This document shows, piece after piece, positions 1,609 through 5,477 of a stretch of DNA of 11,254 nucleotides. The stretch spans positions 1-11,254 of the forward strand of contig JAJRCS010000128.1 of assembly GCA_028678815.1 (NCBI GenBank). The letters run 5' to 3'. The first letter of the stretch is position 1, and each line of letters starts with the position of its first letter. The stretch comes from Methanomicrobiales archaeon (GTDB lineage: Archaea; Halobacteriota; Methanomicrobia; Methanomicrobiales; JACTUA01). A program made the translations under genes and the position numbers. Under the pieces are notes generated by a model, which was not told where the DNA came from, made no database searches, and saw nothing but the letters and a program-made list of their open reading frames with translations.

Positions 1609-1694
1609 CAGGAATGTTCCCCGAGGGTCTCCAGGTGAAACCCCCGGGGTCCTCACTCAGAGTACCCTTTCGTTCAACAAGGGAAGAGCTCTCC

Positions 1695-3470
1695 CTACAC
1701 CCCCCTCCTCGCATCCGTCTCCACGTCCACCACGACCACCGTATCAAGGTCCATCGCCCTCCTGATGGCCGGTTCCAGCTCCTCCGGCCGGCTGACCCGG
1801 ATCCCCTTCCCCCCGCAGGTATCCCCGTAGGCCGCGAAGTCGGGGTTGAGGAGGTCGGTCCCGAAGTTCGGGTAGTGCTCCATCTCCTGCTCGACCCGGA
1901 TCATCCCGAGCTCCCGGTTATCGAGGACCACGATCACCATGGGGAGGCGGTACTTGACGGCGGTTACCACCTCGGCCATGGCCATGGCGAACCCCCCGTC
2001 GCCCGTGATGCAGAAAACCTTCTTCTCCGGATGCGCGAGCTTCGCGGCGATGGCGGCCGGGAGCCCGAAACCCATGGTGGCGAGGTAGCCCGACATGGCG
2101 AAGCGCTGCCGCTTCATCCGGAAGTTCCGGCCGAACCACCAGCCGTTCTCCCCGACGTCGATGGTGATGACCGCGTCCCCGGGGATGGTATCGGAGAGGA
2201 CCTTCATGATGAAGGGCGGGCGGACGGGGACCGCCCGGGGGTCTGCCTCGGCGTCCAGCCGGTTCCGGATGGCCTCCTTCATGGCCGCGATCCGGGTGAG
2301 GGCGCCGGGGTCGTCCCTCGGCTGGAGCATCCCGATCCACCTCGGGAGGACCGCGTGGCAGTTCCCCCAGAGGTTCACCGCCGAAGGGCCCCTCCCGAGC
2401 TTCAGGGGGTCGAGGTCGACCTGGACCATGGGCCGGCCGCGGGGGACGTTCGTCTGCTTCGAGAACCCGACCCCGAGGCAGATGAGGGGGTCGGCCTGCT
2501 GCGCGAGGGCCCGGGCCTCGGGCATCCCCACGGTCCCGAGGACCGAGACGAGCCAGGGATTGTCATCGGGGAGGATCCCCTTCGCCCGGAAGGTGGTGAT
2601 GACGGGCGCCCGGATCCGCCCGGCGAGGGCGAGGACCAGGTCCCCGTCCGGGAAGGCACCCCACCCGGCGAGGATGACCGGCCTTGCCCCCCGGGCCACG
2701 AGCTCGGCCGCCCGGCGGAGTTCCCCCTCGTCCGGAAGGATGTTCCGGTCCGGGATGCAGGTCTCCGGCCGGCAGAAGCCCGCCGCGAGGGGCTCCTTCT
2801 GGACGTCGTTCGGGACGGAGACCTGGGAGACCCCCCTGCCGAGGACGGCATGCCGGAGGGCCTTCTCGAGGATGGTCACGGCCAGTTTCGGGTCGGCGAT
2901 GGTGTTGTTGAAGACGGTCACCGGCCGGAAGAAGGCATCCTGGTCGATCTCCTGGAAGCCCCCGGGCCCGGTGTACTGCATCTCCACCTGGCCGTTCAGG
3001 GAGATCACCGATGCGCTGTCCTCCCTGGCATCGTAGAGGCCGGTGGCAAGGTTCGTCGCCCCCGGGCCCGCGATGGTGAGGCAGGCGGCGAGGCCCCCGG
3101 TGAGCTTGTTATACGCCGAGGCTGCCATGGCGGCGTTCTCCTCGTGCCGGACCACGATGTACCGCATGTCGGGGCGCTTCCTCACCGCGTCCACGAGGCC
3201 GAGGGAGGAGGTGCCGGGGATCCCGAAGACGAGGGACACCCCCCAGGCGGCGAGGTTCGCCATGATGACGTCCGAGACCGTGGTACCACCACCCGCAGGG
3301 GCAGGCCCCTCCTCCATCAGGACGAAGGAGTCCTTCCCCGCCTGGCAGACGGGGCAGAGCCAGTCTGCCGGGAGGTCCTCGAACCGGGTCCCCGGTGGGG
3401 TCTTCGTCGCCTTCTCCCCCAGCGCCTCGTCGTAGATATACCCGCAGACCTGGCACTTCCACCTCGCCAT
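1695..3470 (-). CDS. Rubredoxin fused to pyruvate oxidase/acetolactate synthase-like ThDP enzyme
   Basis: This 591-residue cytosolic protein has two parts. Residues 1-50 are a complete rubredoxin with iron ligands Cys6, Cys9, Cys39 and Cys42 (CQVCGY and CPVC). A short Gly/Pro/Ala-rich linker (about 53-62) leads to a full ThDP-dependent enzyme. That part has a pyrimidine domain with catalytic Glu110 in RHEEN, a central domain at about 245-400, and a pyrophosphate domain with GDG at 490-492 and Asn518 completing the Mg/ThDP motif. The RHEENAA segment and the spacing resemble PoxB-type pyruvate oxidase more than biosynthetic acetolactate synthase, and no regulatory subunit gene lies nearby. The likely reaction is 2-oxo acid decarboxylation, perhaps oxidative, with electrons leaving through the attached rubredoxin; substrate and flavin use are inferences. 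ATG 3470 is chosen because rubredoxin begins there. The nearest Shine-Dalgarno-like bases (GAGGG) directly abut the ATG, so initiation may be unusual or near-leaderless. Confidence 0.88.
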
Positions 3471-3510
3471 CCCTCATGCACCCCGCATATGGAGCGTACA
3501 CCCCTGCGCC

Positions 3511-3520
3511 GATATATAAT
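3511..3520. promoter_or_regulatory. TATA-like box between divergent genes
   Basis: GATATATAAT is the strongest A/T-rich element in the 126-bp gap between the rubredoxin-ThDP gene and the CysRS-like gene. It is nearly symmetrical, so it could place the preinitiation complex on either strand. On the plus strand a start about 25 bases downstream would give a leader of roughly 50-60 nt before ATG 3597. On the minus strand it would give a leader of about 15-20 nt before ATG 3470. Which direction it serves cannot be decided from sequence. Confidence 0.5.
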
Positions 3521-3596
3521 GGCTCCGGCAGGTTTCAGGGGATGGAGAACGGGCAACCTATTATGGAGGGGTGGTGCAACCACTCTTGGAAGCCCC

Positions 3597-4847
3597 ATGC
3601 TCCGCCTCTATAACACGATGAACCGGCAGAAGGAGGTCTTTTCCCCCAGGGACCCGCCGGTCGTGAAGTTCTTCACCTGCGGCCCCTCCGTCTATCTCCG
3701 CCCCCACCTGGGGAACTTCCGCACCTTCCTCTACGAGGATATCCTCGAGCGGTACCTCCTCTCCCTCGGCCTCCGGGTCGAGCGGGTCCTCCCCTTCACC
3801 GACATCGAGGACAAGGCCATCGCCCAGGCGGAGAAGGAGGGGATGAGCCTTTCGGACCTGACCGGGAAGGTGGCCGAGGAGTTCTACCGGGAGGCCTGCC
3901 TCCTCCGGATCCGGCCCCCGACCTGGAATCCCCGGTCCTCCACCACGGTGGAATACGCCGTGGAGATCATCGAGCGGCTCCTGGAGAAGGGGATCGCCTA
4001 CCGGCACGGGCCGGACATCTTCTTCGACCCCCTGAAGGTCCCCGGGTTCGGGAGGCTCGCCAGGATCGACATGGCCCGGTGGCCGGGGAAGAAGCGGCGG
4101 TTCCGGAAGGACACCTACCCGGGGATCCGGTGGAACTACGGTGACTTCATCCTCTGGCACGGGGCCCGGGAGGGGGACACCGCCGTCTGGGAGACCCGGA
4201 TCGGGCCCGGGAGGCCCGCGTGGAACGTCCAGGACCCGGCCATGGCCCTCCCCTTCCTCGGGACCTCCCTGGACCTCCATGCCGGGGGCATCGACAACCT
4301 CTACCGGCACCATGACTACAACCTCGCCATCGTCGAGAGCCTCACGGGCAGGGAGTACTCCCGGTTCTGGCTGCACGGGGAGCACCTTCTCCTCGACGGG
4401 AGGAAGATGTCCAAGAGCCGGGGGAACATCCTCTACCTCGCGGACCTCCTCGCGGAGGGGTGCACCCCCGAGGAGGTCCGGTTCTTCCTCGTGTACGGCC
4501 ACTACCGCGACCGGATGAACATGACAAAGAAGAACCTGGACGCGGCGAGGGGTGTGCTCGGGGAACTCCGGTCCCTCGCCGGGCAGGTGGGGGAGGCAGC
4601 GGAGGGGGCCCGGGTTCCTTCCCGGGCATCTCCCCCGGCTCCGGGTCTCGAGGAGGTCTTCAGGGAACGGATGGATGACGACCTGGACGTGAAGGGTGCC
4701 GTCGACGGGGTCCTCCGGTCCCTCCAAGGGCTTGCCGATCGCCGGGCGGGGAGGGACCTGCCTCCCGGGGAGGCCCGGGCAGCCCTCGATGCTCTCCGCC
4801 GGATCGATGCGGTCCTCCAGGTGATCTTCCCCCGTCAGGAGCCCTGA
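3597..4847 (+). CDS. Cysteinyl-tRNA synthetase homologue with altered zinc site and short C-terminus
   Basis: A 416-residue class I synthetase-like protein of the CysRS family. It opens like CysRS (MLRLYNT, then CGPSVY with Cys28), has the HIGH-equivalent HLGN at 37-40, KMSKS at 270-274, and a DALR-like helical stretch near 357-380. CysRS uses a zinc bound by Cys, Cys, His and Glu to read the cysteine thiol. Here Cys28 and His238 remain, but the second Cys is Asp213 (in WNVQDPAM) and the Glu is Asn242 (in HHDYN). The tail after KMSKS is about 140 residues, roughly 50 shorter than in bacterial CysRS, close to the size of the CysRS-derived ligase MshC. It could be a divergent tRNA ligase, a ligase for another small amine or amino acid, or a pseudo-synthetase. 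I withhold the symbol cysS for this reason. ATG 3597 is chosen because conservation starts there; no clear ribosome binding site precedes it. Confidence 0.85.
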   Translation: MLRLYNTMNRQKEVFSPRDPPVVKFFTCGPSVYLRPHLGNFRTFLYEDILERYLLSLGLRVERVLPFTDIEDKAIAQAEKEGMSLSDLTGKVAEEFYREACLLRIRPPTWNPRSSTTVEYAVEIIERLLEKGIAYRHGPDIFFDPLKVPGFGRLARIDMARWPGKKRRFRKDTYPGIRWNYGDFILWHGAREGDTAVWETRIGPGRPAWNVQDPAMALPFLGTSLDLHAGGIDNLYRHHDYNLAIVESLTGREYSRFWLHGEHLLLDGRKMSKSRGNILYLADLLAEGCTPEEVRFFLVYGHYRDRMNMTKKNLDAARGVLGELRSLAGQVGEAAEGARVPSRASPPAPGLEEVFRERMDDDLDVKGAVDGVLRSLQGLADRRAGRDLPPGEARAALDALRRIDAVLQVIFPRQEP

Positions 4848-5021: not shown

Positions 5022-5477
5022 ATGGCACCACGGATCAATGCCCGGCATATCACCTGCCCCGGCTGCCAGGAGGAGGTCTTCATGGAAGAGCTCGTCGGCG
5101 GCCGGTGCCCGCTCTGCGGGTGCGAGCTGGACGGGAGCGAGGATGCCTGCGAGGGGTTCGAGGAGCTCCTCGACCGGTCCGACCTCACCTGGCTCGTGTA
5201 CCAGTACTTCCTCTTCCGGAAGTTCGAGGCCATGGGGGCAAGCCCGCTCCAGACCCTCCACCTCATCTCCCGGTTCGACGACCCGGGCGCCACGGGCCCC
5301 TCCTACCCCGAGGGGACCCCCTACTCCCTCGAGATCCCCCTCGGCTTCTGGGAGCGGATCGCCCCGAAGCGGTGCAGCCGGTGCGGGAGGCTCTTTGTCC
5401 GGAAGGGGCGGAAGCTCGTCTCGGGCGACCTGGGGAGCATCGCCCAGGACATCTCGTACCTCTGCCCCTCCTGCTGA
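5022..5477 (+). CDS. Double zinc-ribbon protein of unknown function
   Basis: I do not recognise the family of this 151-residue soluble protein. It has two zinc ribbons at its ends. The first uses CPGC (12-15) and CPLC (29-32), with extra cysteines at 34 and 43. The second uses CSRC (118-121) and CPSC (148-151), ending exactly at the C-terminus. Between them lies an acidic, then aromatic-rich, probably helical segment (about 44-75, containing DLTWLVYQYFLF) and a Pro/Gly-rich stretch. The middle has no enzyme signature I can name. Such an architecture suggests a nucleic-acid-binding or protein-contact factor, but that is only inference. A GGGGGT box five bases upstream supports the start. The gene ends 8 bp from the stop of convergent proS. 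The track of in-frame GC-rich codons resembles its neighbours, with no sign of recent transfer. Confidence 0.8.
   Translation: MAPRINARHITCPGCQEEVFMEELVGGRCPLCGCELDGSEDACEGFEELLDRSDLTWLVYQYFLFRKFEAMGASPLQTLHLISRFDDPGATGPSYPEGTPYSLEIPLGFWERIAPKRCSRCGRLFVRKGRKLVSGDLGSIAQDISYLCPSC

Follow-up and report, generated by a model that had tools for sequence, protein, structure and literature searches.

The window analyzed here, an 11,254-nucleotide stretch from a Methanomicrobiales archaeon (contig JAJRCS010000128.1), carries at positions 3597..4847 of the + strand a genuine coding sequence, translated into 416 amino acids followed by a stop codon. Translation, profile matches and an AlphaFold2 model (pLDDT 92.6) identify the product as a paralogue of cysteinyl-tRNA synthetase (CysRS) without the anticodon-binding domain. 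The Pfam catalytic domain tRNA-synt_1e matches it with 227.7 bits and TIGR00435 (cysS) with 271.7 bits, under the 340-bit cut-off of that model, whereas TIGR03447, the model of MshC (cysteine:GlcN-Ins ligase of mycothiol synthesis), gives 175 bits and does not reach its cut-off of 485.1 bits. Among the families listed by the fold searches, CysRS and MshC came first, followed by MetRS. Database entries related to the gene carry the label cysteinyl-tRNA synthetase or 'class I tRNA ligase family protein'. Both class I signatures, which the sequence-only reading had taken to be intact, are indeed in place: HLGN, corresponding to the HIGH motif, at residues 37-40 (3705..3716, +) and KMSKS at residues 270-274 (4404..4418, +). 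They are retained family-wide, HxGN (H37, G39, N40) in 193/193 members and KMSKS in 183-193 of the 193 depending on position (K270 183, M271 and K273 193, S272 192, S274 189). The ligase gene is in frame with a larger open frame of 1077 amino acids (1614-4847, +), the upstream part of which is antisense to a TPP enzyme gene and is probably non-coding. That enzyme (1695-3470, −), encoded divergently from the ligase, is TPP-dependent and pyruvate-oxidase/acetolactate-synthase-like, with an N-terminal rubredoxin domain; it is also found at loci L037, L038 and L040. The other neighbors are a 151-amino-acid protein (5022-5477, +) that has CxxC pairs but matches no Pfam family, ProRS, SpoIIM, DUF63, glycerol-1-phosphate dehydrogenase, UPF0179 and ADP-ribosylglycohydrolase, and the block from the ligase gene onward is conserved up to the contig ends in the Methanomicrobiales loci L037, L038, L039 and L043. 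The 151-amino-acid protein was rejected as a specific partner, being present in 46/60 Methanomicrobiales genomes versus 3/60 for the ligase.

Relatives of the ligase are encoded in 191 genome stretches, the best 80 of which span eight phyla (NCBI names): Thermodesulfobacteriota (33), Bathyarchaeota (12), Spirochaetota (11), Myxococcota (8), Methanobacteriota (7), Nitrospirota (4), Pseudomonadota (4) and Thermoplasmatota (1). The family is spread across numerous bacteria and archaea, most of them known through metagenomes. Within the phylum of the window the gene is present in 7/246 genomes, the window's own counted, and the three Methanomicrobiales carriers are G000, G002 and G020. Some genomes may hold two copies, since loci L098 and L104 come from one assembly, as do L075 and L090. 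A search of database proteins, in which the 7997 candidates sharing most words were scored, yielded 3180 matches that may include ordinary CysRS. Several loci are duplicates (L006 and L143 of L037, L007 of L039, L139 and L229 of L068, L140 of L056); the conservation counts are unweighted, with exact duplicates alone removed and near-copies remaining. No description of the family was found in the open-access literature searched, most subscription papers lying outside that search.

CysRS holds its zinc through Cys, Cys, His and Glu. Cys28, Asp213, His238 and Asn242 of the window protein had been proposed as their equivalents, and Asn210 as that of the usual GWHIEC His; alignment with E. coli CysRS agrees, placing them opposite C28, C209, H234, E238 and H206, with no shift in position. 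Conservation of this Cys-Asp-His-Asn set across the clade holds for C28, D213 and H238. It fails for Asn242, since position 242 varies across the family (N125, T51, V11, S5, I1), which makes Asn242 an unlikely metal ligand on sequence grounds. The four-ligand set of CysRS is therefore incomplete in the family. Invariant among the 193 members are C28, S31, T68, E71, D233, N234, R237, H238, H239 and Y241, and N210 (191/192), Q212 (192/192), D213 (192/192) and D240 are nearly so. The segment CGPS (3678..3689, +) contains Cys28, a candidate metal ligand, and Ser31, where CysRS and MshC have Thr. TDIEDK (3798..3815, +) contains Thr68 and Glu71, whereas in WNVQD (4221..4235, +) Asn210, Gln212 and Asp213 take the place of His206, Glu208 and Cys209. 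Asp233, Asn234, Arg237, His238 and Tyr241 fall in GGIDNLYRHHDYN (4284..4322, +), which also includes the variable position 242. Because TDxEDKA and RHHDY were part of the search patterns that yielded the 80 genome loci, these columns are to some extent selected; the patterns contain neither C28, S31 nor WNxQD, and the 112 database proteins by themselves lead to the same result. Counts out of 192, for the family-specific columns as well as for the charge and C-terminus comparisons below, exclude P0059, which has a garbled middle and gaps at the WNxQD columns. In L233, a distant archaeal member outside the main set (~44% identical), CGPS, WNVQD and RHHDY are kept, with Ser at 234, and a TGA flagged in the relative L231 was not seen in its aligned coding stretch. 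CGPS, WNxQD and RHHDY thus provide a diagnostic signature of the family. S31, E71 (also in 3/28 CysRS), N210, Q212 and R237 set it apart from both CysRS and MshC, and Y241 from CysRS; the former five residues may adjust the metal site or side-chain selection.

Loss of CysRS ligands had been read as casting doubt on cysteine specificity; that the ligand changes themselves abolish it is not supported by the comparison with other cysteine enzymes. According to PMC9736012, the zinc of MshC is bound by C43, C231 and H256 together with the substrate thiol, i.e., by three protein ligands, and in 120/120 close MshC homologues Ser occupies the position of the fourth CysRS ligand, Glu (HHE[FY]S, versus HHDY[NTVSI] in the family). 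Relative to MshC, the family keeps the Cys and the His, likewise has no Glu and has D213 for C231. Asp at the second zinc-Cys position is also found in L004, L005 and L129, CysRS of two lineages that are standard in other respects, with HIGH, KMSKS and the C-terminal domain all intact. Thus, by analogy, Cys28, Asp213 and His238 could still form a three-ligand metal site that holds zinc and reads a thiol, and cysteine may be the substrate. C28 is lost in 5/9 fusions of CysK with CysRS but in 0/193 family members, suggesting selection on this residue. The earlier suggestion that an amine might be activated fares poorly as well: the MshC contacts to the alpha-amine given in the same paper (T46, T83 and the G44 carbonyl; PMC9736012) align with S31, T68 and G29 of the window protein, which argues for an alpha-amino acid. 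A changed specificity is a less likely alternative: the metal would be lost or repurposed, and a polar pocket of N210, Q212, D213, R237, Y241 and S31 would read another small alpha-amino acid, for example serine, an acidic analogue or 2,3-diaminopropionate. H206 is replaced by N, E208 by Q and T31 by S throughout the family, at positions constant in CysRS (28/28) and MshC (9/9), P233 (27/28 CysRS, 9/9 MshC) is replaced by R, and position 238 (E. coli numbering) is unconserved. These second-shell differences from both CysRS and MshC (S31, N210, Q212, R237) count against cysteine and could mean another side chain. However, C28 and H238 are invariant, Asp209 occurs in standard CysRS, and MshC, itself a cysteine ligase, has lost Glu238 too.

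The short, MshC-like C-terminus noted from the sequence alone holds for the whole family. The chain of the window protein ends with a helical stem-contact domain (4527..4844, +), stopping where the anticodon-binding domain would start, and the latter domain is absent in all 192 usable members. Measured from E. coli residue 398, an extension longer than 30 residues is found in 0/192 members and 0/9 MshC, versus 27/27 CysRS, which continue for 48-78 residues. Consistently, the Pfam models CysS_C and DALR_2 (E 1e-3) do not match the window protein, and its structural model superimposes on 1u0b_B (461 residues) over residues 1-396 of the latter. A second property shared across the family is a basic connective peptide (CP). 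It includes the loop KKRRFRKDTYPGIRWN (residues 165-180; 4089..4136, +), which lies in family-specific columns and is basic at 166 (97%) and 171 (93%). Mean net charge of the CP is +6.8 in the family (192 members), −3.7 in CysRS (n=27) and −9.4 in MshC (n=9). In pairs drawn from single genomes, the family protein is more basic than CysRS over the whole chain in 21/21 (mean +17.8, Wilcoxon p ~6e-5) and over the CP domain in 20/21 (mean +11.4, p ~7e-5; G087 is the sole exception), the paired genomes being partly related, which makes these p values too small, and net charge being a crude proxy of RNA binding. The truncated CysRS of G064 (L128) was excluded from the charge and C-terminus counts and left that genome unpaired. 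As judged from sequence, the basic chain and CP point, indirectly, to RNA or another anionic acceptor rather than to a neutral amino sugar.

The family forms a single clade with support of 100/100 in a tree of 83 rows, into which 38 of 79 thinned family rows were taken. Its neighbors are Spirochaete CysRS, Bathyarchaeal CysRS and the CysK-CysRS fusions, so that the origin of the gene as a CysRS-derived paralogue is well supported by sequence. MshC groups elsewhere, with an actinobacterial CysRS (86/89), and a sister relationship of the family and MshC, a test chosen ahead of the tree, was rejected (p-AU 0.0087). This evidence is good but not final, since the nine MshC, the top matches of one M. 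smegmatis query plus Tsukamurella, are Mycobacteriales as far as named and sit on a long branch. Because MshC is not the sister group, the resemblance looks convergent, and the family looks like a second, independent CysRS derivative without the anticodon domain and without the fourth zinc ligand. It is unlikely that these proteins are MshC-like ligases whose product, formed from cysteine and a neutral or sugar amine, would be a low-molecular-weight thiol not yet described. Length and the missing anticodon domain are as in MshC, an aromatic and a small residue replace Asn-Glu, and Arg follows KMSKS in 103/193 members, as in MshC; but the family stands on a separate branch, has Asp for Cys231 and bears the opposite CP charge. 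Archaeal thiols have been reviewed, with no MshC reported from archaea (PMC7278568). PIG-L deacetylase was rejected as a mycothiol-like partner, since it is matched in only 7/13 distinct hosts searched, with one match scoring under the cut-off, and also in 1/3 relatives that lack the gene. Peroxiredoxin adjoins the ligase gene at six Bathyarchaeal loci (L070, L086, L099, L101, L111, L112) and one of Methanomicrobiales (L043), i.e., in 7 of the 150 adjacent genes, a pairing which would fit a thiol pathway but is confined to two lineages. Comparison of the 150 adjacent genes with 106 control genes five places away revealed no conserved partner among the 25 commonest families. Other recurrent neighbors are CNNM (8, in Desulfobacterota-type loci), MatE (4) and, in several lineages, ABC ATPase (3, versus 2 in controls) and ABC-2 permease (3); exporters and peroxiredoxin are weak functional leads. 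These counts come from 154 mechanically called neighbors, of which four in L233 and L140 were left unscanned, with L229 left out and the duplicates L007 and L039 both included.

Most hosts appear to make Cys-tRNA by another route. A standard CysRS accompanies the family gene in 22 of 28 host genomes searched, hand-picked among the 80 loci, that of G064 being only partly read. Among the 11 distinct archaeal hosts (12 handles, G002 and G060 being two names of one genome, in the PIG-L and SelB searches as well), SepRS is present in nine and SepCysS in eight. The same-genome check suggested by the sequence-only reading gives a similar answer for the window: its assembly (71% complete) contains SepRS, with standard CysRS and SepCysS not found, and the more complete genus mate G002 (98%) has both SepRS and SepCysS, the family gene being its sole full CysRS-type match. 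Three of the six hosts without standard CysRS (G060, G068, G072) have SepRS and SepCysS. G079 has only a CysRS fragment. In the Bathyarchaeote G080 the CysRS catalytic-domain match is divided between two places on contig C1, near 346572 and 1281284, which reflects either a split gene or an assembly fault. SepRS and SepCysS were both not found in G080, and in the Bathyarchaeote G073 the host search found neither these nor CysRS. Since standard CysRS or SepRS usually coexists with it, the family protein is not the main route to Cys-tRNA in most hosts, though a role in Cys-tRNA formation is conceivable in G073 and G080. In archaea with SepRS and SepCysS, the gene can pass for CysRS and distort the view of cysteine decoding. 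Of the proposal that this is a neofunctionalised CysRS paralogue, the paralogue part is backed by the fully supported clade, the fixed pocket and hosts mostly making Cys-tRNA otherwise, and it extends to the missing anticodon domain; a change of the amino acid is the part that does not follow.

We therefore favor, tentatively, a CysRS-derived ligase working outside ordinary cysteine decoding, which probably activates Cys and serves an acceptor other than anticodon-read tRNA-Cys. The intact HIGH and KMSKS motifs suggest that the protein would activate an alpha-amino acid with ATP, the likeliest substrate being L-cysteine or a close thiol analogue, recognized by a metal on Cys28, Asp213 and His238. 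Such a site would resemble the zinc site of MshC, with its three protein ligands, except that Asp stands in for one Cys. Because the sequence and model have no anticodon-binding domain and the CP is strongly basic, the adenylate would probably go to an anionic acceptor that is not anticodon-read tRNA-Cys; the end of an RNA acceptor stem or a nucleotide is the likeliest candidate, another anionic molecule a possible one. The family may then represent an undescribed aminoacylation system of bacteria and archaea, of an origin independent of MshC, in which a Cys-Asp-His metal site on a basic, anticodon-blind body delivers cysteine or a non-standard amino acid to RNA or to an unknown cofactor; this broader picture is offered with similar reserve. 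Synthetase paralogues have repeatedly been turned to cofactor synthesis, RNA modification and code expansion (PMC9437257).

The nearest published analogue, as described in the reviews PMC9437257, PMC7609411 and PMC11415595, is CysRS* of Desulfobacterales, a CysRS paralogue encoded in selC*-selB*-cysS* operons which also coexists with CysRS. That the family is likewise such an enzyme, charging cysteine onto a dedicated tRNA (selC*) or a minor tRNA-Cys, is improbable: in CysRS*, too, the anticodon domain is missing and the CP domain is altered (PMC7609411, PMC11415595), the latter being linked to acceptor-stem recognition (PMC7609411), and the CP of the family is basic, but no SelB was found in the 80 loci (1.18 Mb, many on short contigs) or the window, and ARAGORN, which can miss such tRNAs, detected no selC-like tRNA in the window and 43/80 loci, only three ordinary tRNAs. 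A selenocysteine link is thus unsupported. SelB is encoded elsewhere in 19/30 host handles, on the contig of the family gene only in G071 and the single-contig G083, at least 55 kb away, and among archaeal hosts searched only in two Bathyarchaeota. Compared by description, the family differs from CysRS* in having no selB/selC linkage in the loci examined and in occurring also in archaea without SelB.

The CysK-CysRS fusions of Desulfobacterota, some of which share genomes with the family, occupy a neighboring branch of the CysRS tree. Unlike the family, they form a separate clade, carry a cysteine-synthase-type PLP enzyme, have degraded HIGH and KMSKS motifs and, in the two fusions scanned, keep the CysS_C anticodon domain, both CysS_C and DALR_2 being matched. 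No paper on a fusion of a PLP enzyme with CysRS was found in the open-access literature search. In about 64 of 76 Desulfobacterales genomes, a CysRS-type match lies within an open frame of 730-930 amino acids, a count of matches not checked individually. The PLP part (PF00291) is present in 9/9 of the fusion loci (L145, L146, L148-L154), Pfam having been run on two of them.
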